Positions 5,442-23,836 of a DNA stretch of 64,000 nt are shown in pieces (the stretch's first letter is position 1; every line of letters begins with the position of its first letter). Position numbers and translations under genes: made by a program. Source of the DNA: Owenia fusiformis (Eukaryota; Annelida; Polychaeta; Sabellida; Oweniidae). The notes below the pieces were generated by a model that ran no database searches, was not told the origin of the DNA, and saw only the letters and a list, made by a program, of their open reading frames with translations. Location of the stretch: the NCBI GenBank assembly GCA_903813345.2, contig CAIIXF020000010.1, positions 13,151,181 through 13,215,180 of the forward strand, written 5' to 3'.

Positions 5442-5598
5442 TTACTCTATAGAATTTGATTCATCATCGGCTTCTATCCCCGATTCTGCCAGTGACAGAG
5501 ACCCTATGTCGATGTCCCCTGCGATAAATTGCCTGAGGTAATTCGTAATTTCTTTATGTCCAAAGCGCTTGGCGTCATCCATCGGCGTAAAGTCCCAT
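5442..5598 (-). CDS. GLS: Glutaminase exon 13b (alternative last exon)
   Basis: Acceptor TACTTCCAG. Encodes [20 protein letters not shown].. LRQF, which is closer than 13a to the vertebrate C-terminal ankyrin helix. An acidic tail follows (..[10 protein letters not shown]) with TAA at 5444-5442 (51 codons plus stop). An ATTAAA lies 36 nt beyond the stop and a canonical AATAAA at 5177-5172. Enters in the same phase as 13a. Confidence 0.9.
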
Positions 5599-8500
5599 CT
5601 GGAAGTACACGAGGCGAAGTGTGAAACTATATGACCTTTTTATTGTCCAGTATATTAATAATAATTGTTTTTATTTAAGGTTAAGGAGAATCGATGGTGA
5701 TACATACATGTACATCATATTAATCCAAAACACGCACAACGTATCACACTTTATTCTGACAGGACCACAGATTGAACAAGATCTTTCAGAGATGTCTTGT
5801 TTTCAGAACGTTCATTCTGCCCAGGTTTGTATTTCCAGAAGTACTCCTCGACTTCACTTTGTTGAAATTTCTTAGCGTCGTCCGATGGAGTAAAGCCCCA
5901 CCTATGTATAAATATGGAGCCTTCTCCAGTCCAAGTATGGCAAATATTTATATAACGATAGCGTGTTTTCCTTTCATAATATTATTCCAAATAATCTTCA
6001 AGCCAAAGTGTGTTAAAGGATAAGGGAAATTAGTGCAACAGATTTTGGACAGTCATATGTTTGATTTTGGCCATTTTCTGGGGATTTAAACATGTGCATA
6101 TGTCCATTTAGATAAAGTGGAAAACAATATTTCCCATGTTATTTTCCCATAGGGAAAAATCAGTTTGGTCACCCATAATGGGTATCTTTAAAACCCCTAG
6201 AGGGATCACTTATTCCTTTTAAGTGGTTAACTATGTGTCAAAACGCAACATATTGATGCAAGAAAAATTAAAAAAGCAGGAATGGAAGGGGTCAAAAATC
6301 AGAAAAACATTTCAGAAAATACATGTGGGTGGGTTGTTTGCATCTACCCTGTCTCAAAGTCGAAATTATTTTACCATCTCTAGAAGTGATTTTCCTATAG
6401 GCAATGCATTGGCCTAACATATGTAATTGTTTAAATCCTCAGAAAATGGCCAAAATCCAACAAATGACTGTCCAAAATCTGTTGTGCTAATTTCAATCCT
6501 CCTTTAAGAAAGGATATTGAGAGGTACAGTATCATTCTCAGGAGATGATCCGGGATACTTTTGATTTTGGTGAAGTTATTTTCAAAGAACGTAAGATAGA
6601 AACCAAAACGTTAGATAAAAATTATAAAAGGCAAGTCACTCTTTTAAATTACATTAGTGAAAAATATCTAGGCAAATAAAGCACCGTACCTGTCTTTTGG
6701 GTCAACTGGGACTTTACATTTTTCTAGAAGAAACTTGACAACATTTAGCCTCCCCTCTGCTGCCGCAAGATGCAACGCCGTACGACCATCGTAATCTCCT
6801 TCAGTAAGGTCCATTCCAGAAAGTGCAAATCTAAAACACATTTACATGAATCAAAAGCAGGAATAAAACCCATCAGTGACCATTCCGTATGAAAAAAGGA
6901 CAAATCAAAAGCTAATTGCGGTTAACCTGCATTGGTCTGATGGTAATTAATAACTCGAGTCTCTAGCCAATTTCTCGGCTAGAGGTAATTTCATCTGGAA
7001 TACTGTGAACTCCTTTTGAAAAAAGCTGGCCGGTGTGTCATAAATTTATTGAATATTCCAAAAAATCGCCAGATAAACAAATCATTAATTAAAATGGGAC
7101 CGGCTCAGCTCCTTGATGAGATATTGTATGATTTCGTCTAAAATCAAAACAAAATGGCTCCAAGAAAAATAGCGATATTCGAAAACTGAACGAAATGTCG
7201 TTAATGTCTGACAATAGTAACTGGCTGTAAATTCTACGTTAGCGATCCAGAAGATGTGAACTAATACATTGATCAATTCATGTGTGTTTTGGAATTTTGG
7301 GTGAGGTAATAAGACCAAAACTCGCAATCCAAATTGTGATGCGGAAAAATGGCGGACATTTGATTTCAAATTTATGATTACGACATGACCCGTTATACAT
7401 GCAGGGATTTATCTTTGGACGAAGGCCACGATACAGTGGCCTTAGAAGAAGGTTAGTAATTAACATTCATCTACCTCCTCATGGCAGATAGGTCTCCATT
7501 AGAGGCAGCAAAAAGCAAGGCAACAATGGAATTGGCCGAGACGTCTCCTTTCCTCACTCGGGGGTCCATCTTCTTGGTAGTGTGCTTCAGGTTGTCATAG
7601 TTGTGGAAGCTAAACTTGTCAATCAGTTCCTGCATAGGACAGAAAAAATATGCCAATAACGGGACTGAAAACAAGGGAATATAGGTCAACAGAAAGATTG
7701 TACGACATCTTTCAGTCGATCCAGTATCTATCAAAGACAACACATTGCTGACAACTAATGGGTAGTTCGAACTTTTGCCTTCTGTTCCGTCATGCATTGC
7801 GGGCAAGAACATTTTTCGTAAAATAAATCAAAAGACCTAATACATCTTCAGTAGATGCTAAAAACATATGAACATTGTCAAATAATCATGTCACTATATA
7901 TCGTGCCATATAAATGTTAAAAAGAAAATGTACATTTCAGAGTATGATACACTGGCTCCGTTTTACTCCTAGCATGAAGGTTACCCGCAAATGAGCGACT
8001 ATATTACTCACCTCACAAAACTGGATCCCTCTGTTGCTGTTGCCGTGCTTGTCCAGGGGAGGAGACCAGGTACAAATGCCCATTAGGTTGGGAACAACCA
8101 ATAGGACTGCCCCAGCTACTCCCGATTTTGCTGGTAAGCCGACCTGTAAGAGAACGAACCACATACTGTATAGCTATATAACTTCTTTGAATCGTCATTC
8201 CTTTTCTTGTATTTGTATAAGCTGAAATGGGTTGTGCATAAAATTATTCACATAGGGAAGATATACTCCGTAAAGTTGAAAGATCTCATTTGATTTAATT
8301 AGGAGATATCTAGGCTGGTATATTTTCTAAAAGAACATGCATGGGAAAGACTTTAATTGGCAGATTGGTTTCGATACTACAAAGGTAGGCAGGCCTACGT
8401 GTATATTATAAACTTAGATTTAATAGTGTCGTGATTATACTTACGTGGAAGGCGAATTGACCAGAATAATCATACATTCCACATGAATACATAAGCGAAA

Positions 8501-11500
8501 GTGTGTTCCTGACAGCGTCTCCTGAGAGGACCTTTTCTCCTGTAATGGGACAAATCCCCCCGTTGGCTAAAGTGGCCGCTATAACAGCTCCAGACTCCGC
8601 TGTTATCTCGATTGAACACAGCTGTAATGAAGAGGCGTCTTACAAACAGATCTCTCAAAAGACAAAATAATCAAGGGGGGAGTTATGAAGTTAATGCCAA
8701 TAAAAATGAAAATCATAAAAAAGTGAACGAAAATGTTTAGTAATCATGCTTGATCAGTTTGATAATAATTGAGCACATTGATTTCCCTAAAGCTACGTTC
8801 ACACCAACGGCGCTTTGATGGCGCTTTAAAGCGGCTTGTAAAGCGGCACCAAATCGGCACAAAGCTTGATTAAAGCGTCGGGGTCGTAATAGGTCGTAGA
8901 AAAGCTTGGAGTAAAGCGAGATATTCGACAAGAGCGCCAAAAAATTGTAAACTGTTTAAAAAATTTGGGCGCTCTGTTACGAATTGATTAAAGCGCCGAG
9001 AGTGTATAGCTCAGCAAAGCTTGACCCAATGCGAAGGAAAGCTTAACAGAGCTTGGTTCAAAGCGGGGACCCCAGTCTCTTCACGTTCTGTTACCACTTG
9101 ACACGCTTCGTTAAGATGTCTCAAGATTTGCTCCGATCTGGCATGAAGATCTGACACAATGAAGGACTCTGAAGATTTCCAACAAATTGAGACGCTTTAA
9201 TCAAGGATTGAACGCTTTGTTAGGCTTTGTTACACTTGACAAGCTTCCTCACGCTTTCTCACGCTCTTTCACGCTGGGCGACAAAGATCATGTCTTCTTC
9301 AGATAGGTCATATTCTGGTCCATCTGGAATATCTGGATCTTGTTGTTCTGCCATCGTGTTTTCGAGTCAAAGATGCAATGGTTTTATGGATCTACTACAT
9401 CTTTATATAGTCATTGGATCAAAAGCGGCATGAAATCGGCGATCTCGACATTTTTCAATGCGTGATAGAGCTTAACAGAGCGTAACAATGCACAACAGAG
9501 CTTGGCAATCGTATCAGAGCCTGATTTGAAGCGTCATAATCGCATCAAAGCGTAATAAAGCTTATCAAAGCGTAATTTCAAGCGTATTCAAAGCCTGGTC
9601 GAAGCGGGATCAAAGCGTGAGGAACCGTAACAAGTCGGGAAATCAGAGCGTATCAGAGCTTATCAGAGCGTAACATTACTTAGGAGATCGTAATATTATT
9701 GGGAAAGTAAACAAAAATGACGGCGCTTTGCTCGCCGATTTAAAGCGTGGCATTTGCTGTTGGTGTGAACATAGCTTAGGATCCAACATTCATCTTTTGT
9801 ACATGAGAATCTCTAAAGGTACGTTCACACCAACGGCGCTTTGATGGCGCTTTAAAGCGGCTTGTAAAGCGGCACCAAAGCGTAACAAAGCTTAATTAAA
9901 GCGTCGGGGTCGTAATAGGTCGTAGAAAAGCTCGGGAGTAAAGCGGGATATTCGGCAAGAGCGCTAAAAAATTTAAACTGTTTAAGCGTTCGCTCCAACG
10001 GCGCTTTGATGGCGCTTTAAAGCGGCTTGTAAAGCGGCACTAAAGCGTAACAAAGCTTGATTAAAGCGTCGGGGTCGTAATAAGTCGTAGAAAAGTTCGG
10101 AGTAAAGCGGGATATTCGGCAAGAGCGCCAAAAAATGTTAAACTGTTTAAAAATTTTGGGCGTTCTGTTACGAATTGCTTAAAGCGCCGAGAGCGTATCA
10201 AAGCTTAAAAAACCGTAACAAAGCTCAGCAAAGCTTGACCCAAAACGTAGGAAAGCTTAACAGAGCTTGGTTTAAAGCGGGGACCCCAGTCTCTTCACGG
10301 TCTGTTATCACTTTAAACGCTTCGTTAAGATGCCTCAGGATTTGTTACGATCTGGCATGAAGATCTGACACGAGGTCAGACGCTTTCATCAATATCTGAC
10401 ACTCTTTGTTACGCTTTCATGAAGGACTCTCAAGCTTTCCAACAAATTGAGACGCTTACATCAGGAATTGAAACGCTTTGTTAGGCTTTGTTACGCTTGA
10501 CAAGCTTCCTCATGCTCTCTCACGCTCTTTCACGCCGTGCGTCAAACGTCATGTCTTATTCAGATAGGTCATGCTCTGTTCCATCTGGAATTTCTGGATC
10601 TTGTTGTTCTGCCGTCGTGTTCTCGAGTCAAAGATGCAATGGTTTTATGGATCTACTGCATCTTTATATAGTCATTGGATCAAAAGCGGCATGGAATCGG
10701 CGATCTCGACATTTTCCAATGCGTGATAGAGCTTAACAGAGCGTAACAATGCACAACATAGCTTGACAATCGTATCAGAGCTTGATTCAAAGCGTCATAA
10801 TCGCATCAAAGCGTAATAATGCTTATCAAAGCATGATTTCAAGCGTAACAAAGCCTGGTCACAGCGTGAGGAACCTATCAGAGCTATGTTAAGCTTTCCT
10901 ACGCTTTGGATCAAGCTTTTCTGAGCTTTGTTACGGTTTGTTAAGCTTTGATACGCTCTCGGCGCTTAATCGATTCGTAACAGAGCGCCCAGAATTTTTA
11001 AAAAGTTTAACATTTTTTGGCGCTCTTGCCGAATATCCCGCTTTACTCTGAGCTTTTCTACGACCTATTACGACCCCAACGCTTTAATCAAGCTTTGTTA
11101 CGCTTTGGTGCCGCTTTACAAGCCGCTTTAAAGCGCCATCAAAGCGCCGTTGGTATGAAGAAAAATGACAAAAATGACGGCGCTTTGCTCGCCGATTTAA
11201 AGCGTGGCATTCGCCGTTGGTGTGAACGTACCTTTAAAGGTAAAACCATAGACATATATTCGCGAATCGCGTTCTCTTCACGAAAAAACGGTTTGACTGT
11301 AACTGAATATTTGTGCAAACTGTGGTAATCGTGTTATGATGATTACCTTATCCAGATTTTAGATATTTTTTTAAATTCTGCACTACCCTCAACTTTTAGA
11401 TTACACTCATTCGTTTCATATTCCTTTGTTATGTGCTGCTTGGCAAAATCATTTTCAAAAATTATGTTGTAACAATACCAAGTCAAGCCACGAACTATTT

Positions 11501-14500
11501 TCTTACTAAACCACCGATTTCTATTTCATATCGTTTAATATGAATGTTTATAAGACAAAAAAAGTTGAAATTGAAATTGATTGATTCCAATGGGTTTTCG
11601 CAATACCCGCTAACTCTAACATTTTAGTTCAAGAAAAGCTTTGCATTGATTTTAATCTGTTTAATGATGATAGATGATTCTTTTATGAAATATAGCATTT
11701 TTGGCGCCAAAATCATTTTGATAAGAATATGAACAATTTATCACTAAATGGCAAAAATGTTCACCCCTATATCACGTTCGCTCTCGATTTGACCTTTGGT
11801 AGCTTACTTTTTCTGAAAAAAACAACACTCTTCTGAAGAGGTAATTGAATTTTATAACAATACCAATATTATTAGTCCAAATGTTCCATCCAGTGTTATA
11901 AAAAAACTTGCAAACATTAAAGGCAACGATGAGTAGAGAGACGAACTGGGGTGAAAGGTCAATCGTTTTGACATCTTAATAATATATGCATTTATTTCTT
12001 TAATTTTGTATTAAATCCATTATTCAGATATGATAAAAAGGGTACTTTACTTTTTGAATATTGCTTCATGTATTTTCCACTCTCTGCCATGTGTTGCCAT
12101 TTTAACGAATTTGGGGTTTCCAAGGAATTTGGAATGATAAAATAGTTAATAGAGAGCTTGGGTATCCATTAGGGTGGTCCAAAATATGGCGAAAAACCAA
12201 CTTTGTTTCGGATCATCTTCCTCATTTGACTTACTGTTGTCCATGACCTAAAACACCTGCACACCAAATATTGAGACCCAAATCCCATGGGAAATTTACC
12301 CACGCTTCGACTGAAAATTCAGTTATTTCATGATTTTTTGCTATTTTCGATAAATTGACATCTCCCTTTTCCTGGTATAATATGTTTCTATTTTTTCATA
12401 GTAAGCATTTTTGGAGGACTCTTTATTACTTCATAATACTAGGAACCCATACACCAAATTTTGAGACCCAAATCCCATGGGAAATTTACACACGCTTCGA
12501 CTGAAAATTTGTGTTTTTAATGATTTCATTTCTTTCAGCAGTAGTTGGGATACGTGCAGCGTCCCAGAGTAACTTCATTTCATCCCAACATTGTTTTACA
12601 TAGTCTGATACAGTGTCTCGTTTGCCTGAGCTTTCACTACAAGATCTTATTCCTCTGTATCTTTGGAGTACTATTTTTTTGATAGGTAAATGCAAATGTG
12701 GTATGGTCTCTCTGCTTGGTCCAACAAACTTCTCCAAAATCTTGGAGGCATTTGATGTTCTATTCAGCTTTCCCATTTCTATTGAACGTTTAGTGCTAAT
12801 GGCTGTATAACAAATGTTTCAAGCATTAGCTCTGAAATGACATAACCAAAGCAAATGATGCAAGGTCGCACAAAGAAGATTGTTACAAACTGGAAATCAC
12901 ATGCAAAACATGATATACTGTACTTGGCCACTACCACAGTATATGAATCTGCATATGTAAATTCAAATATTTTACCAAAAACTATTGTGTTTGTTGTCAC
13001 CTTTGAATAGAATTAAAGTCTTGGTTTTTTGATATAAGGGTTGTAAGAATTAAGAAGGACAGAAAAGGTCTCTCCTGAATGTCTAAAAAATATAGATATA
13101 AGCATATAACGCCAATACTATCAGGAGACAGCAATTTATCGAAAATCGCGAAAAATCATTAAAAACACAAATTTTCATTCGAAGCGTGTGTAAATTTCCC
13201 ATGGGATTTGGGTCTCAAAATTTGGTGTATGGGTTCCTAGTATTATGAAGTAATAAAGAGTCCTCCAAAAATGTTTACTATGAAAAAATAGAAACATATT
13301 ATACCAGGAAAAAGGAGATGTCAATTTATCGAAAATAGCAAAAAATCATGAAATAACTGAATTTTCAGTCGAAGCGTGGGTAAATTTCCCATGGGATTTG
13401 GGTCTCAATATTTGGCGTGCAGGTGTTTTAGGTCATGGACAACAGTAAGTCAAATGAGGAAGATGATCCGAAACAAAGTTGGTTTTTCGCCATATTTTGG
13501 ACCACCCTAGTATCCATTTGTGTATATTAAGACTACCAGGAATTGTAGTCCCCCTATCAATTGTTTTAAAACACATTTGCTCCGATTCATCGATCGGGCG
13601 ACGGCCAATAAATCGGAGGCAATGTGACTTAGGCTTAAGTATGATTAGCATTAAACATGTTAATGATTTCTTAATTTAACGATTAGAATCTGTAAACATC
13701 TTATATATAACCTTTGGAAATGTTATTTAATGAACTGTCACCAAGCAGAAGCGTATTCATAAGCATGTTATCATGTTAATTATGAATTGAAATAATAGGG
13801 TTATTTAGTAAGAAAATTAGTTACAGAGAGATTTCGCAACACACTTATAGTATATGTATCATTCCTGTATAGCATACAAGAGGGGATTAACCCCAAGAGT
13901 TCAAAGATGATATACGCTTATAATGTAAACCTGTATTGAGATGACGTCCACCTCTGATTGGTCCAAATCGATAAACAAAAATGGCGGATTCAAAATTTTC
14001 TAATAACGCTTCGAATAATATTATGTTGATTCCTGGCGTATTTACCAATTGCATAGCTTGGTCTTTCACATCGAGATAAAGAAATATGTAAGGAATATGC
14101 TTACATCGATTAAAACATCACGATTACGCGTTATATTCGAAAACTTACCGGTGAGAATTTGCGCAAACGAAGGTGGTACGCAAGATACGTAATATGTCAG
14201 TCATCGCAAAAGCTCTGGGGGTGGTTACGTCATCATTTAATGCGTAGCTCTATAAGTCCCTATAAGTGTGATATTCTTGTAGCGTGTAGACGACGATTTA
14301 TAAGAATACATTGTATTCCCATATGCTATAAGTGAGTTGAGAAATCTCTCTATTGGCCTTTCTTTAGATTTTGGACTGGCCTGACATACCATGAAATAAA
14401 ATTCTAAAGTTTCCACCAGATCTGAACCTTCAGGAAAACAACCATGTTCCTTCATGTAATAGCCTAGGGCAAAGTTCCTGTCAGCTGTCGCCCTCTCACT

Positions 14501-17500
14501 AAGGTAGGTCGAATTGCTGAATCCAGTGTACTCCCCGCCCGCAAGAAGACTGTACATTAGTTGTGTCTAGATGAAAAAGAATAGTGCATAATGGGTTAGG
14601 AGTGAGGATTGCTTGTGCGTACCGAGTGCGACTCACCATGAAGTAAAACTCAAGGGTTTCTACCATGTCTTCGCCTTCAGGAAAACATTTATGTTCTTTC
14701 ATAAAATATCCCAAAGCAAAGTTCCTGTCTGCTGTTGATCTTTCTGATAAATAAGTTGAGTTGCTAAAACCAATATTTTCACCACCTGCTAAACGTTTGA
14801 AACTTTCCTGAGCCTACAATCAAATCAAACACGTGTTTTCAAATCTTAAAGACTCCAATCAGAGGCAGTTTGAAATGAAAATATTTTCTAATCATCCAAA
14901 TAATGTGTTTTATGACTTAAAAGGTTAAAGATCATTTTTGAAAAGCAAGAAAATCAGCAAACACCTTGTTGTTGAAATCTCTAAAAACTAGACTCTGAAA
15001 AGTTGAGCAGAAATTTGACATATCACATTCTGATTACTAGAATAGTACATTGTGCAACACTACGATACCTGTATTTGCCAAAATGGTTTTCATCGGACCT
15101 TTAATTGTATACACCTTTATTAGGTTCAATGTGTCAATGTGTCAAAGAAAATACATTATAGCATATCTTCTTTTCTTTTTTCCTTACAATATTCAAAAAA
15201 CAAAAAATGTGAGGAATAAAAATATTTTTTAACCTCGATTTCGTCAAAATAGCTGACCGTGTTTCACCTTTTAATTTATGTTTTCAACTGAACTTACATA
15301 TTCGAATCTTTCTGATATCGGATGTTTTCTTTTTAATAGTCCAGCTGTAATTATAGCGCCTGCATTTATAAGAGGATTGTGTGGTTTATCTAAAACACAA
15401 TACGGCAATGTTGGTTCAAGAAAAAACATCAAATCACAAATTCAACAGGTGGTGGAGCGATTGCCGGGAACTGTTAGTTAATACATTAAAATGACTATAG
15501 TTTTTTGTTACGAGATACATAAAATTATAAAATTATATAGTATAAAATATTATGTAGAGTTCTAGGCTGGCAAATTCCCAATTTATTCATTCATTTGCTA
15601 TAATCAATATTTTTCGATAGACGCCAGTCCTTGAAAGCAACTTACTGCGACAATCTAATGTCAGTTCATTGAAGCTACGGCCGCTTGGCTCCTGGCCGAC
15701 ATATTTGTGAGTTTCGTCTACCCCTATCTCACTCATAGCAAGTGCGTATGTGAGAGGTTTACTACAAGACTGGATACTAAATGGTTTCGTTGTATCACCG
15801 ATTGAATGTCTGAAATAAAATACTATCACATAGACAATTATACTTTACTGAAGATAATGCATTAATACAGGGATACAATGAGGTTATAACTATGCTATCG
15901 TATGGACAGCATGGAATACAACATGTTTCTAAGGATACACCATTTTTGGGATAACTTCTAATAAGTTATAGCTACAGTCCAAAATTGTTTTTTGTTTTGT
16001 TTTAGAAATAACTTGGCCGATTGAAAAGAAAAATTTTCAACTTTCGACACATCGTAAAATATGAGAAAAAAATTAAAATTAAACTACAATTGAATATAAG
16101 AAGAAATTCACATGAGTACAAAAACATAAACTATGAAATACAGTTAATTAAAGATACAAATGTCTAATTCTTGAGAGATTAAGACAGAATTTGTGAAATG
16201 CTGTATAAGTGAATCAAGAACTAAGGAATCACAATTTCCAATTCAAATTCGTTTTCGTGCATTACATCTGTATATTCCGTCTGGTATAATTCTATATTGT
16301 TGTTTACTTTTTTTATTCAATATAAAGTGATTTTAGTATTTCCCAAACATATTTACAGTTTACAGTTGGTAAATAACTTGCCTCTGTCCATCCACTGTGC
16401 ACACTGAGATTCCCCACAGATTTGGATCCGCTCTAGCCAGCTGTGGAATGTACTGTGCTGGCTGCATGAAATAAAAGAAAAAATCATGAATATGAATTAC
16501 TTATTAATAACTTTAAATGCATTCCAAACTTAAAGTTTTCATTGAAAAGTAACGTCACGATTTTTTGATATAACCTTTTTTGTGGGGAATACTTATAATT
16601 TAAAATGTTCGAACAAGCAATGCAGAGCGTCACAACAAACAGCATGCGAACAAGCAAACAAACAGTACTCACAGTTCCTTGAGTGTTTTTTTGACACGAG
16701 TAGTATAGCGTGTCTATGTGACCCGTAAAATCCCAGAACTCCGGGATGACCATTTCATTCTTGAAGGCCATTCCAATCAACACAATATTGTCATGAGTAC
16801 ACCTAAACAAATAAATAATACAGGGTGGTCCAAAAAAAAGTGAACCCTGCAACAGGCTACGTTTTTCTTAATACATACATGAATTGGCTCATATTATCAC
16901 ATGTTGTAGAGAAAGGTCTAAAATTTTGGTTGATGCCATAATTTATTCTCAGTCTTAAATTTTGAAGAAATTACAAGCGTTTAACAAACATGCCTGGAAA
17001 TTAAACATTGTACAATGATTCACGGAAATTGTTGAAACACATTGGATGATCTTAAACAACTTTCAGTTAGAGATACAAGTTTAAAACCCTACCATATGAC
17101 AAAAGGGACACTATTAAAGCAGGAAACACATTTCACACTTTCATTGATCATTTTGAAGCATTTTTAACTGTTCAACAGTTCAGGAGTATGTTACCTACAC
17201 CAACAGTTAGAGGGGGCCTCTTATGGAAGGGAGTTGCCCCCTGTGATCAGGAATCTGAAAACCCCTTTATCAAATATCTTTAAAAAATCAAAAGAAAATC
17301 CAATATTCAATGTTTGAGCCATATATCATTAGAACATTTCAAGATTATATAGGGGTACGTTCATGATTTCACTGGATGAAAAAGTTTTCATCTGTTGAAG
17401 CTAGCACATTTGTTTGGATCACAATAACTTTGCAACTAACAAATGCAGGATGCTAGTTTTCAGCCATAATATGCAGGATTTGAAATTGAACAAAGTCAGA

Positions 17501-20500: not shown

Positions 20501-23500
20501 CGCACGGCTTCAGTTCTTAAAGATACATTGCTAGACTTGAAAATTCTGAACCAAAAACAGATTTATAATGTCACAATTGCAAATGAGCTAATATGCATAA
20601 TTCAATATTGTAATTATATGGGAATTTTTTTAGGTTTAATTTGATACCAATTTCGTTTCAATAGACAAAATAATGACAAAGCTACAAATGATTTAAGATT
20701 CCAAGGTAAGATGTCTATAGATGCGTAACCATGGTAACGGAATGCTACAATACAGAGCATCCGATGAGGGTTTGCAAAGGCATCCGGCAGAAAATTGAAA
20801 TTCAAAATGTTACCTTCCAAAAAAGTATGGATGCAATAAACTAACAGAGACCGATACCTTGGGTAAATCTTTTGAAACGATAGAGAGGCATGGGTTTCTG
20901 ACTATAGGATCCAAGGGAGGTCAATTGAAGATGTTACACTTTTTTCAATAAATGATATCATGAGCTGTACACCTGATATTGAAAACGTTTGGCCTCTTTC
21001 CTTATCATTTCACATATGTCTGGCACAAATCCCAAAAGATAATTTTAAAACTGTACTGTACTTCTTAAATGTTTCTCTATCAACTTTTTCATCATTGCTC
21101 TCATCTGTGTCGTAGAGATGTTTCTCCCGTACATCATCTAAATTAGCCTTTGTTTCTTTTAGCCTTGGGTCAGTCTCCCTTAATCCAGTCATTTCTAGCG
21201 CCTGTCAAATTAAAATCAGACTTTTGTCACATTTCAAAAACATGGGAATGATTCGTTGTTTCCTTCTACGATTCTCATTTTAATATCATCATTTTTATAT
21301 CATCACAGTCAATACATTGACTGGTCTTTAATGAAATATATCAGTCATAAACATACAATTACATACCCCATTTTACTAGGCCAGTAAATTTAAATGATCT
21401 GGTCATTGTGAGATCACATACAACAACATTGGTACATGAGTAAGAACAGATAAACGATTGACTGGACTATGCTGAGTGTGCTCACTAAAATTTGGGTTTA
21501 TTTTAGAGGAGTAATACATGTTTTAGGTAAAATAAACAAATGTTCCAATTCATCTCAAACCAAATGAGTCTGGCAAAGCTATACTGATAATTAGAAAACA
21601 ATTAAGAAAACGGCTAAAGGATTTTACTTACAGCCCAGAATTTCTGGATGCTGACCATATCTCCACTCTTGAGAAGATTGAAGAGTACATCTTCAATGTC
21701 TGTTGGCTTGGTAACTCGACTCAGCTGCTCGGCGCTACAAATGGAAATATGGGTGCTACTATGTGTAAGACATGACGTTGAACTCGTTTAATTGGCTATG
21801 GCTATTACAAACAGGAACACATACACGGTACATATTTAAAGTCCCCGTCTAAAGTTGAAAATCTTTTTTTATCATTCATTTACTATTTGTCAGGACTTAA
21901 AAAGTATTTTTAGATATTTTTGAACAAAAAAAAATTTTGAAAAAAAGTTGTGAGCATTTCATTTCTCAAATATTCAAATTTCCCGCCATTTTTCAAAAAA
22001 AGTTGAAATTTCTTAATCATCAAATATTTCTTAATGCATTTCAAAAAAGATTATCTTTTTAACACCAATGCAAAGGTTGAACAAAGGACACACAATTTCA
22101 ATAATAAAATGCCATATTTAATGGGCCACTTCAATGTTTTAACATATCAAAAATATTTTGAAACATTAGTGATGTCACTAAGGTACCAAAAACTTTTTGA
22201 AAAAAATTGAATTTTTTTTTTCGATGTCAATCTTTTCTAAATATGTTAGACTTTCATAAAACACCAATCTTGATTGTCTAACCAGGTTAAAAGGAAGAAT
22301 AAATTATGTTTTAGATATCATTGTACCATTGGTTTCTATGAGAACTAAAATTTTGAAATGCATTTTTCTCAGAACCATTTTCATGCACTGATAAGTTCAT
22401 TTCTCGCTTATTTATGAACCGATTTTCTTGATTTTTTCGACAAAAAAACATGGGAGGATGAATGCTATGCATTGGTATGAATTATGGCTAATTAGAAGAT
22501 ATGAGTGACCTCTAAAAGTTGGTTTAAAATAAATTCACAAATTTGGGAACAAAGAGTCTATCAAAAACCACTTTTTGAAATTTAAAAAAAAAGTTTCACA
22601 TATCACACTTTGATAACATTGGGTAAGACTACAATATAAGCCAAAGTGGTTTAAACTTTATATGGGGCCTTTAAGGATTTAAGCCCTGGACTCATTGCAA
22701 TGTTTGCTGAATCATACTAAAAATGTGTTGTTTCCAAATCTTAACATGACAGCGCAGCGGGAATGCAAAGTTTAGGAAACAACGCCCGAGTTGAATGAAG
22801 CAGCTAAAATGCATTGAATTGGCTTAAATTATTTTCACAAATTCCAAAATTTTCTCCAAAATCATCTAAAAGGAACAAAATCACTAAAAGAATACATTTT
22901 CAATGACATTTTCGCAAGGGTCAAGTTGGCAAGTTATCTAATCCAATGTGAGAAGTCCATTCATCACCATGACAACTGTTTAACTGGTGACCTTGTATGT
23001 GTTATTGATATTTCACACATTGTTCATTATGTAAATACTCTGTTCTGGTTGGCTGAAAATAGCCAAAATACAATTAATTCTCAAAATTCATTGGAGGTGA
23101 TATTGTAAGAATAAATCAGAAAAGTATATTTGCTTGGAAATGGATTAATAAGTGACTTTTCCATTGACGTTGGTTATTTTGACATCCTGACTTTAATTCT
23201 AAAATACACACATAATATGTGACCAATCTCTTACATATTCATAGCACTAGCAGGAATTCCCTAAAGTGCATCGGGTAAAGTTTTTAAAGAATTTGGCTTA
23301 TCTATTGCTGAGAAATAACTTGTCAAATCACTTCTCTGTTTTTGGTACAAACGCTATGAAGTTCTCATTGCGTTGCTCCTGTATTGGATATTATGAGATG
23401 CTATCTTGAATTTCTTTGTACTCACATTACATTTACTTGATTTTTTAATATTTTTTACTTTGTATACAATACTCTTGGGCTGCTTTGTACAAACTTTCAG

Positions 23501-23836
23501 TGAATTTGGTTGATCAGCTGCTGAGATAATACTTGTCAAAAAGTGCCTAATATTTGGGAACACTCGATATAACATTATAGTTAGCTAGTAAAATATCTAT
23601 CAGGAAAGCTATTCAAAATAAAGCACTACTGCCTAGCCCAGATTCATCGGTCGGCGCCCGTTCGATCGAGTATTTTGTTCAGAATTAAATTTCGTTTCTA
23701 AACAGAATACTGAATCGTACGGGCGCCGACCGATAAACCAGGGCTTGCGTGAGCTAGGCATTACTCACCACAGTTTTTTGAAGTCTCCTAATATAAAGTC
23801 TTTGTCAATATTACTGATTTTAGTCGTGGAAGCCAT
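5442..23836 (-). CDS. GLS: Glutaminase gene (GLS family), whole span, 13 exon positions with two duplicated exons
   Basis: Encodes glutaminase, which hydrolyses L-glutamine to glutamate and ammonia. Spliced exons in order (minus strand): 23769-23836, 21632-21734, 21062-21201, 16673-16802, 16382-16461, 15646-15809, 15298-15389, 14637-14813 or 14390-14566, 8445-8621, 8012-8143, 7475-7629, 6690-6830, then 5751-5901 or 5442-5598. Every junction keeps phase, giving 569 or 571 aa. Family landmarks are all present: YIPQLA, the SCSKPL nucleophile motif, INAGAI, SERxTADRNFA, [20 protein letters not shown], then C-terminal ankyrin-type repeats ([11 protein letters not shown]). Counterparts of human Tyr249, Ser286, Asn335, Glu381, Asn388, Tyr414, Tyr466 and Val484 are kept, so an active enzyme is expected. 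The N-terminus is short and has no obvious mitochondrial transit peptide. The family is certain; that all exons are used is inferred from splice sites and reading frame. Confidence 0.96.
5670..5675 (-). terminator. Poly(A) signal of the 13a glutaminase isoform
   Basis: AATAAA on the minus strand, between the 13a stop codon and exon 13b. Its position would let transcripts end before 13b. Confidence 0.55.
5751..5901 (-). CDS. GLS: Glutaminase exon 13a (alternative last exon)
   Basis: Acceptor ATACATAG. Encodes [20 protein letters not shown].. and ends ..SVVLSE with TAA at 5753-5751 (49 codons plus stop). It is a homologous copy of 13b (WxFTPxDDAKxF) with a different tail. A poly(A) signal AATAAA lies 75-80 nt past the stop, at 5675-5670, before exon 13b, as expected of a terminal exon used on its own. 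Another AATAAA overlaps the stop codon. Confidence 0.88.
6013..6507. mobile_element. TTAA-flanked hairpin element in glutaminase intron 12
   Basis: TTAA at 6013-6016 and 6504-6507 flank about 80-bp inverted arms sharing ACAGATTTTGGACAGTCAT and GATTTTGGCCATTTTCTG. TTAA target duplication is typical of piggyBac-type elements; no transposase is present, so this is a non-autonomous copy. Confidence 0.65.
6690..6830 (-). CDS. GLS: Glutaminase exon 12 (ankyrin repeat)
   Basis: 141 nt. Encodes [20 protein letters not shown].. [20 protein letters not shown].., a clear ankyrin repeat. Its donor, GACAG|GTACGG, leaves two bases that fit both last exons 13a and 13b. Confidence 0.95.
7475..7629 (-). CDS. 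GLS: Glutaminase exon 11
   Basis: 155 nt. Encodes [20 protein letters not shown].. MDPR then ..[20 protein letters not shown], the linker and first ankyrin-like helix pair. Acceptor ATGCAG; donor AG|GTAGAT leaves two bases. Confidence 0.95.
8012..8143 (-). CDS. GLS: Glutaminase exon 10
   Basis: 132 nt. Encodes [20 protein letters not shown].. [16 protein letters not shown].., the end of the serine-beta-lactamase-like catalytic domain (human Val484 region). Acceptor TTACAG, donor GTGAGT. Confidence 0.96.
8445..8621 (-). CDS. GLS: Glutaminase exon 9
   Basis: 177 nt. Encodes [20 protein letters not shown].. [13 protein letters not shown] ..[19 protein letters not shown]. It includes the counterpart of active-site Tyr466. 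Acceptor TTACAG, donor GTAAGT, phase 0 at both ends. Confidence 0.96.
8788..9778. mobile_element. AAAGCG-word element, copy 1
   Basis: About 1 kb bounded by inverted ends TAAAGCTACGTTCACACC / GGTGTGAACATAGCTTA. The interior is built from degenerate AAAGCGTAA/AAAGCTT words in both orientations, often about 10 bp apart (clear at 9541-9611). No transposase-like ORF. Open frames inside are by-products of the words. Confidence 0.75.
9814..11236. mobile_element. AAAGCG-word element, copy 2
   Basis: 1.4 kb with near-perfect ends TAAAGGTACGTTCACACCAA and its inverse at 11217-11236. The left end is repeated directly at 9987-10090 and inverted at about 10985-11155, so the element has grown by internal duplication. 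Its centre is about 85-90% similar to copy 1 by eye. Confidence 0.75.
12170..13509. mobile_element. hAT-like fold-back element with 8-bp target duplication
   Basis: Termini TAGGGTGGTCCAAAATATGG and its exact inverse, with inverted arms of about 355 bp (12170-12526 and 13152-13509). GTATCCAT is present on both sides (12162-12169, 13510-13517). An 8-bp duplication and a TAGGG terminus fit the hAT superfamily. Arms this long are unusual for hAT. Confidence 0.75.
12486..12776 (-). CDS. Unknown ORF inside the hAT-like element
   Basis: ATG at 12776, 96 codons. Sequence has real-protein character ([39 protein letters not shown]). The last codons run into the left inverted arm. It may be an N-terminal piece of an element-encoded protein or a captured host exon. 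I do not recognise the family. Confidence 0.4.
   Translation of the reverse strand: MGKLNRTSNASKILEKFVGPSRETIPHLHLPIKKIVLQRYRGIRSCSESSGKRDTVSDYVKQCWDEMKLLWDAARIPTTAERNEIIKNTNFQSKRV
13572..13637. repeat. CCGATTCATCGG MITE family, short copy
   Basis: ACATTTGCTCCGATTCATCG near one end and the inverse AAATCGGAGGCAATGTGACT at the other. A minimal member of the family also seen at 23630, 24497, 45352 and 56515. Confidence 0.6.
13871..14220. repeat. Dispersed repeat R2, copy 1
   Basis: Shares AGTTCAAAGATGATATACGC and TAATGTAAACCTGTATTGAG with 50606-51001 in the same orientation, more diverged than R1. Confidence 0.75.
14390..14566 (-). CDS. GLS: Glutaminase exon 8b (downstream copy of a duplicated exon)
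   Basis: 177 nt, same phase and same length as 8a. Begins [20 protein letters not shown], then [20 protein letters not shown], ends ..VETLEFYFM with donor GTATGT. Acceptor TTTTTCATCTAG. Active-site residues are intact, so this is not a decayed copy. The first eight residues are the most different from 8a, and the Tyr394 position is Tyr here. Only 70 nt separate it from 8a. Confidence 0.95.
14637..14813 (-). CDS. GLS: Glutaminase exon 8a (upstream copy of a duplicated exon)
   Basis: 177 nt, phase 0 at both ends. Encodes [20 protein letters not shown].. through [20 protein letters not shown] to ..VETLEFYFM, with donor GTGAGT. It carries counterparts of human Glu381, Asn388 and Tyr414. The residue matching human Tyr394, at the tetramer interface, is Phe here. 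Exon 8b encodes the same 59-residue segment, so a normal protein should use one copy only. Confidence 0.95.
15298..15389 (-). CDS. GLS: Glutaminase exon 7
   Basis: 92 nt; acceptor GTTTTAG, donor GTAAGT. Encodes [20 protein letters not shown].., with the conserved N-A-G-A substrate-binding motif (human Asn335), then ..SERFEY. Confidence 0.95.
15646..15809 (-). CDS. GLS: Glutaminase exon 6 (catalytic Ser-Lys exon)
   Basis: 164 nt. Encodes [19 protein letters not shown].., containing the S-x-x-K nucleophile pair (human Ser286/Lys289), then the gating-loop segment [18 protein letters not shown]. In human numbering Phe318 and Leu321 are kept, but Lys320 reads Glu and Phe322 reads Thr, so the allosteric dimer interface differs from vertebrate GLS. 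Donor A|GTAAGT. Confidence 0.96.
16382..16461 (-). CDS. GLS: Glutaminase exon 5, followed by a GC donor
   Basis: 80 nt encoding [20 protein letters not shown].., which includes the counterpart of active-site Tyr249. The exon ends CAGAG|GCAAGT: a GC-AG intron. Phase proves this: the leftover AG joins A of exon 6 to make Arg, giving GQR-HSIGD as in other glutaminases. No GT alternative keeps the frame here. Confidence 0.94.
16673..16802 (-). CDS. GLS: Glutaminase exon 4
   Basis: 130 nt between acceptor TTTAG and donor GTGAGT. Encodes [20 protein letters not shown].. and ..[10 protein letters not shown], matching human SNIVLLTQAFRRKFVIP and SHIDELYESA. The acceptor lies only 18 nt from a transposable element (16821-18101), so the branch point may lie inside that element. 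Confidence 0.95.
16821..18101. mobile_element. TA-flanked inverted-repeat element beside exon 4
   Basis: Ends CAGGGTGGTCCAAAAAAAAG and its inverse, then imperfect arms of about 200 bp; TA on both sides (16819-16820, 18102-18103). Fits a Tc1/mariner-type non-autonomous element. It ends 18 nt from the exon 4 acceptor. A SINE is nested in it. Confidence 0.7.
17565..17838 (-). repeat. tRNA-derived SINE nested in the 16821-18101 element
   Basis: Minus-strand head with box A TTGGCCTAGTGGTTAAGGC and box B GGGTTCAAACCC (17735-17838), followed by a body carrying CTGGCTAGAATTGTC. The long internal stretch between the boxes rules out a normal tRNA. Confidence 0.6.
18717..20904. mobile_element. Large TA-flanked fold-back element in glutaminase intron 3
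   Basis: Outer ends GTCAGAGACCCATGCCTCTC and its near-inverse CTCTCTATCG side at 20880-20902, TA on both sides. Arms of about 300-350 bp (18719-19060, 20595-20902). A third related segment at about 20210-20345 shows internal duplication. No transposase seen. Confidence 0.65.
21062..21201 (-). CDS. GLS: Glutaminase exon 3
   Basis: 140 nt; CAG acceptor. Encodes [16 protein letters not shown].., matching the human TGLRTSDPRLKE segment, then ..VDRETFKK. The donor is AAGAA|GTACAG. Reading through it gives a different, stop-terminated tail, whereas splicing to exon 4 restores the family sequence KKC.xxNIVL. Confidence 0.93.
21632..21734 (-). CDS. GLS: Glutaminase exon 2
   Basis: Acceptor TTTGTAG and donor GTAAGT bound 103 nt encoding (C)[18 protein letters not shown].., matching the start of the N-terminal helical domain that precedes the glutaminase fold (human EDLLFYTIAEG region). 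Confidence 0.88.
21735..23768. other. Glutaminase intron 1
   Basis: About 2 kb, very A/T-rich, with no exon or clear repeat except the MITE at its 5' end (23630-23760). Confidence 0.7.
23630..23760. repeat. CCGATTCATCGG MITE family copy touching the exon 1 donor
   Basis: Ends TGCCTAGC / GCTAGGCA, with inner inverted words ATTCATCGGTCGGCGCCCG / CGGGCGCCGACCGATAAA. On the minus strand it begins 8 nt after the exon 1 junction, right behind GTGAGTAA. Confidence 0.75.
23769..23836 (-). CDS. GLS: Glutaminase exon 1 (start codon)
   Basis: ATG at 23836 sits in a good context (ACAATGG) and opens [14 protein letters not shown].., 22 codons plus 2 nt before a GTGAGT donor. The two spare bases pair in phase with exon 2. 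In the same frame upstream there is a stop before any other ATG, so this start is favoured for an unspliced 5' leader. The encoded N-terminus is acidic/neutral rather than rich in Arg and amphipathic like a mitochondrial presequence. An alternative upstream first exon cannot be excluded, so assignment to the glutaminase rests on phase and position, not on homology. Confidence 0.65.

Follow-up and report, generated by a model that had tools for sequence, protein, structure and literature searches.

Pairs of mutually exclusive exons are already known in metabolic enzymes, including PKM, ketohexokinase (KHK) and OGDH, an enzyme of the glutamate/2-oxoglutarate route. Here, we describe a putative pair of this kind, exons 8a and 8b, in a glutaminase gene of the annelid Owenia fusiformis. 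The gene is encoded on the minus strand of a 64,000 nucleotide (nt) stretch of contig CAIIXF020000010.1 (assembly GCA_903813345.2, positions 13,151,181 to 13,215,180), hereafter called the window.

Like the window pair, exons 4a/4b of vertebrate OGDH are a tandem pair that arose by an old exon duplication; they show a short distance from donor to branch point (PMC7969005), as is predicted for the window pair. The OGDH branch points lie far from the acceptor (PMC7969005), whereas in the glutaminase pair the whole intron is short, at 69–70 nt. PKM exons 9/10 (PKM1/PKM2) are likewise exclusive exons of equal length in a metabolic enzyme, encoding 56 residues, and their isoforms differ in tetramer behaviour (PMC6595688). 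Splicing and branch points were measured for OGDH (PMC7969005), and the PKM choice, in another enzyme, is governed by hnRNP proteins (PMC6595688), whereas the window isoforms and their branch point are predicted from sequence. The exclusive exons 3A/3C of ketohexokinase, again another enzyme, lie inside the catalytic domain and give isoforms with different catalytic properties (PMC13296549). Within the glutaminase family itself, the KGA/GAC forms of human GLS arise from alternative last exons and an intronic poly(A) site and differ at the C-terminus (PMC13296549). Exons 13a/13b of the window gene resemble this arrangement. The window gene, however, duplicates an internal active-site exon, and its 13a and 13b are duplicates of each other. 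Tandem exon copies also occur in the muscle myosin heavy chain exon clusters (PMC3912159), which have a likely counterpart in the same genome (12 matches on contig C9). Among the matches listed in the literature on glutaminase splicing, exon duplication or annelid tandem exons, judged by titles and abstract starts and by passages of PMC7969005, PMC13296549 and PMC12487847, no exclusive exon pair in glutaminase was found; in the passages of the OGDH paper (PMC7969005), the word glutaminase stands in a reference title only. What appears to be new is, therefore, the enzyme.

The predicted product of the window gene is an animal (kidney/liver type) glutaminase, an EF-hand/glutaminase/ankyrin enzyme with an open frame, encoded by coding exons 1–13 from position 23836 down to 5442. 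In a Pfam scan of two forms (8a with 13b, and 8b with 13a), positions 1–286 of the 286 in PF04960 were covered, and PF17959 (EF-hand_14, N-terminal) and C-terminal ankyrin families scored above the cut-off in both. Forms containing one exon 8 have a stop-free frame of 569–571 amino acids. The features of the pair are as follows.

14637..14813, minus strand: exon 8a, 177 nt, phase 0; acceptor ..ATTTGATTGTAG/GCT, donor ATG/GTGAGT
14567..14636, minus strand: intron between 8a and 8b, 70 nt
14595..14599, minus strand: branch-point-like CTAAC (motif match); the distance of its A is 41 nt to the donor of 8a and 29 nt to the acceptor of 8b
14390..14566, minus strand: exon 8b, 177 nt, phase 0; acceptor ..TTTTTCATCTAG/ACA, donor ATG/GTATGT

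The coordinates, equal length, shared phase, open frames and splice sites (AG/GT) of the two exons agree with the original prediction. Exons 8a and 8b are identical at 120 of 177 nt and at 46 of 59 residues, and correspond to positions 358–416 of human GLS (by alignment to human GLS in PDB, with numbering from the 669-residue chain). Six of the 13 residue differences fall in the first eight positions, which had rightly been singled out as the most diverged part. The two exons are tandem duplicates, and we consider it likely that they are spliced as alternatives in this animal glutaminase, most likely one at a time. Exclusion is probably imposed by crowding of the splicing machinery, and the isoforms probably differ in activation or assembly.

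The pair is shared with neighbouring genes. A PF04960 profile search of the genome gave 24 matches, which were grouped into at least six glutaminase loci. Three lie on contig C10 within ~82 kb (the window gene, L005 with L011, and L006 with L010 and L012), and the other three, L007, L008 and L009, are found elsewhere. The 8a/8b pair is carried by all three linked genes; its splice sites are preserved in the window gene and in L005, and 8b is broken in L006. Exon 1 is present in L006 and the window gene, and was not found in the stretch fetched for the L005/L011 gene. In L007, L008 and L009, the exon 8 segment occurs once and is interrupted by an intron after GFSNAT, with a second intron splitting it in L009. 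Because the segment is single and intron-split in these three loci, we infer that exon 8 was a fused exon in the linked genes, or in their ancestor, before it became duplicated. In a tree of exon DNA, the 8b copies of the three linked genes grouped with a support of 100, apart from the 8a copies, and the 8a exons of L006 and the window gene paired at 94. The doubling of the exon most likely preceded that of the genes, since the 8b of L005 is nearer to the other 8b copies than to its own neighbouring 8a; the 8a copies grouped weakly, at a support of 63.

Indirect support for mutual exclusivity comes from the unusually short intron between the two exons and its branch-point-like site. The window gene has an intron of 70 nt here and L005 one of 69 nt, and the A of a CTAAC motif lies 41 and 38 nt, respectively, from the donor; CTAAC is found in the L006 intron too. 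In OGDH, the exclusivity of 4a/4b is enforced by branch points 25–41 nt from the donor, and a limit of ~50 nt has been proposed (PMC7969005), so both candidate distances fall below that limit. The intron aligns largely between the window gene and L005, CTAAC stretch included.

Steric exclusion of the alpha-tropomyosin/OGDH type involves an intron below the size that is ordinarily spliced, and the 69–70 nt of the window gene and L005 compare with at least 118 nt among sampled introns. The 114 introns estimated from exon matches of myosin, chaperonin and kinesin had a median of 346 nt and a minimum of 118 nt, and the shortest of 55 glutaminase introns was 130 nt, giving none below 100 nt among the 169 sampled. 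The first set omitted the 12 rows of a myosin array, 17 of 18 tandem kinesin copies on contig C2 and a further seven rows of kinesin; when these seven were paired manually, no intron below 300 nt was added. The glutaminase set omitted wrong or skipping joins (exons 5–6, 7–9 and 13a–13b, in three genes each), the 8b–9 join of two genes and the 8a–8b intron itself. Sampling by matches would be expected to reveal a 70 nt intron, because the window pair itself gives two matches. The gaps between matches in the myosin array on C9, which is larger than the glutaminase pair, range from 164 to 1788 nt, and a very short intron is therefore not general to tandem exons in this genome.

L013 (C9:37985500-37995000, minus strand) contains twelve tandem matches to one N-terminal segment of the myosin motor, and is likely to be an array of alternative muscle myosin exons. 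The kinesin copies (C2:23266359-23269174, minus strand) are eighteen repeats of one exon match with a period of ~159 bases.

Enforcement of exclusivity by the reading frame, through exon length, could be ruled out, as 177 is a multiple of three. Inclusion of both copies gives an in-frame product of 630 amino acids and skipping of both gives one of 512. The frame is kept with both, one or neither exon, and a physical block is, therefore, the likeliest device. By analogy, the short intron suggests exclusion by steric hindrance as in OGDH: with the likely branch point ~41 nt away from the 8a donor, U1 and U2 particles would lack the room to occupy the 8a–8b intron together, and exon 7 would join either 8a or 8b, each of which would join exon 9. 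Several points weigh against exclusive splicing by this mechanism. The branch point is a motif match and, as such, a candidate only, and double inclusion and double skipping both preserve the frame. The 169 introns are a sample that includes 114 estimates, and short introns that keep the frame may hide in matches with internal stops. Other animals splice shorter introns constitutively.

One rival explanation concerns the mechanism and leaves exclusivity itself in place: competing RNA structures or splicing regulators, instead of the short intron, would determine the choice. Arthropod multi-exon arrays provide known cases of competing RNA structures. In PKM, regulator proteins govern the choice (PMC6595688). 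We regard this explanation as unlikely, although it fares best among the alternatives: a pair separated by so short an intron needs no extra device, and in the 100 nt compared on each side of the pair, alignment of the flanking introns between the window gene and L005 is confined to short segments and to the vicinity of the splice sites. Looser splicing, in which transcripts with both exons or neither are also abundant and perhaps encode inactive subunits, is a more doubtful proposition. It is favoured by the fact that every combination stays open, but double inclusion would repeat, and skipping delete, a catalytic segment of a compact domain, and a 69–70 nt intron, if spliced, would be the shortest of all those sampled.

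Crowding on the 8a–8b intron remains our preferred explanation. The copies were also compared for signs of selection. Exon 8b shows 19 changes over 36.5 silent sites between the window gene and L005, but 7 over 140.5 replacement sites (omega 0.058; p 1.7e-10 by Fisher's test), which indicates strong purifying selection. Within the window gene, 8a and 8b differ at 33.1 of 35.3 silent sites but at no more than 23.9 of 141.7 replacement sites, which marks the exon pair as old and constrained. In L006, the 8b acceptor has changed from AG to AA, and a 1 nt deletion and a 6 nt insertion shift the frame, leaving a dead copy. The L006 coding sequence with 8a is open, at 569–571 residues, and by its sequence this gene can make the 8a form only.

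Not all of these comparisons favour two working exons. For 8a, the evidence of constraint is weaker: between the window gene and L005, 8 of 34.3 silent and 16 of 142.7 replacement sites had changed (omega 0.435, p 0.09, not significant), and nine of the 13 amino acid differences sit in the first 14 residues. Patchy gene conversion may explain why silent divergence is low in 8a, as it is in exons 2, 5 and 9. Since L006 has lost 8b, at least one of the genes can do without the alternative. The prediction of two functional alternative exons is well supported by the presence of the pair in three linked genes, by intact sites in two of them and by selection that is clear for 8b and weaker for 8a.

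These data bear on the possibility that the window gene uses one copy, the other (8b, or else 8a) being a relic that splicing has ceased to include. Copy loss does occur in the cluster, as the broken 8b of L006 demonstrates, but 8b is conserved between the window gene and L005 with sites intact in both, and 8a has stayed intact in each of the three genes, L006 having no other intact copy. With L005 used to polarise the changes, the window 8b has gained 2 substitutions and no insertions or deletions since its split from L006, against 5 substitutions and 2 insertions or deletions in the dead L006 copy, although these numbers are small; the 8a counts over the same split, also small, were 2 and 4. 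We consider a relic improbable. Duplication by chance or by an assembly error is ruled out by the 57 differences in 177 nt and by the presence of the pair at three loci, the other two being genes at distances of ~29 and ~82 kb.

As predicted, the counterparts of Glu381, Asn388, Tyr394 and Tyr414 lie inside exon 8, and alignment to human GLS upheld the human numbering. Those of Glu381, Asn388 and Tyr414 are identical in 8a and 8b, and Asn388 and Tyr414 are catalytic residues of glutaminase. The role of Glu381 has been described (PMC10912226). In human GAC, phosphate contacts Arg387, Tyr394 and Lys398, and these residues, with an Arg387–Glu397 bridge, are involved in the phosphate response and in dimer–dimer contact (PMC10912226); Tyr394 further contributes to the binding of CB-839 and a related inhibitor (PMC5295402). 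Exon 8 encodes the counterparts of all four residues, Arg387, Tyr394, Glu397 and Lys398. Arg387 and Glu397 are retained, and position 398 is His in both window copies. Because the catalytic counterparts are unchanged and the phosphate and assembly residues lie inside the 59 residues that are swapped, the 8a and 8b isoforms probably share the same chemistry, and their difference is probably one of activation or assembly.

All three 8a copies differ from both intact 8b copies at positions 358, 360, 363, 371, 399 and 405. Position 399, which adjoins the phosphate and interface residues, is Lys in the 8a copies and Gly in the 8b copies. The window 8a lacks the tyrosine hydroxyl at position 394, which meets phosphate. 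Two observations weigh against a functional difference of this kind: Gly399 is also found in the single-copy gene L009, and Phe394 is confined to the window 8a, with Tyr in the 8a of L005, the 8a of L006 and the three single-copy paralogues. The contrast at 394 proposed in the original prediction (Phe in 8a, Tyr in 8b) is, therefore, real in the window gene, but private to it, and a general 8a/8b contrast at this position is ruled out by the Tyr in the other 8a copies and in the unduplicated paralogues.

The original prediction had also contrasted the internal pair with the C-terminal variants of vertebrates. The internal pair is there, but the contrast was incomplete, as the window gene also has seemingly duplicated last exons.

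5751..5901, minus strand: exon 13a, the first in a pair of related terminal exons; it has a stop of its own and is followed by AATAAA motifs
5442..5598, minus strand: exon 13b, second related terminal exon, with its own stop

Two related last exons, each with its own stop, are present in all three linked genes (window 5442-5901, L005 and L006/L012). Exon 13a is followed by AATAAA motifs in the window gene and L006 and by ATTAAA in L005, and 13a and 13b are probable alternative last exons. One last exon was found in L008 and in L009, where the fetched stretches end soon after and a second copy is possible; none was found in L007, where the fetched stretch also ends soon after. We tentatively suggest that the 8a/8b pair may be a splice-selected switch for phosphate activation and for tetramer or filament assembly, which in combination with 13a/13b could yield four glutaminases tuned separately at the allosteric site and the ankyrin end.

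The remaining coding exons of the window gene are listed below.

23769..23836, minus strand: coding part of exon 1, with an in-frame stop 93 nt upstream of the ATG
21632..21734, minus strand: exon 2
21062..21201, minus strand: exon 3
16673..16802, minus strand: exon 4
16382..16461, minus strand: exon 5, with a GC donor (AG/GCAAGT)
15646..15809, minus strand: exon 6
15298..15389, minus strand: exon 7
8445..8621, minus strand: exon 9, also 177 nt, coding for the next segment and not a copy of exon 8
8012..8143, minus strand: exon 10
7475..7629, minus strand: exon 11
6690..6830, minus strand: exon 12

The GC donor of exon 5 (window 16376-16388, minus strand) is common to all three linked glutaminase genes. 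The intron between 8b and 9 contains several direct and inverted copies, identified by eye, of a repeat (window 8790-11240) that is rich in GCGCTTTAAAGCGGC-like sequence and resembles a mobile element. The same intron holds a long inverted repeat (window 12170-12510 and 13170-13510), with the same frames on opposite strands, which surrounds an open frame of 110 amino acids and resembles a terminal-inverted-repeat element.

For its activity, glutaminase relies on phosphate and on dimer–tetramer–filament assembly, and drugs act at that site. Natural interchangeable cassettes that span this region, together with a sister gene fixed for one of them, would offer ready variants for finding the residues on which phosphate dependence rests. 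Glutaminase would join PKM, OGDH and ketohexokinase as a metabolic enzyme varied by exclusive internal exons.

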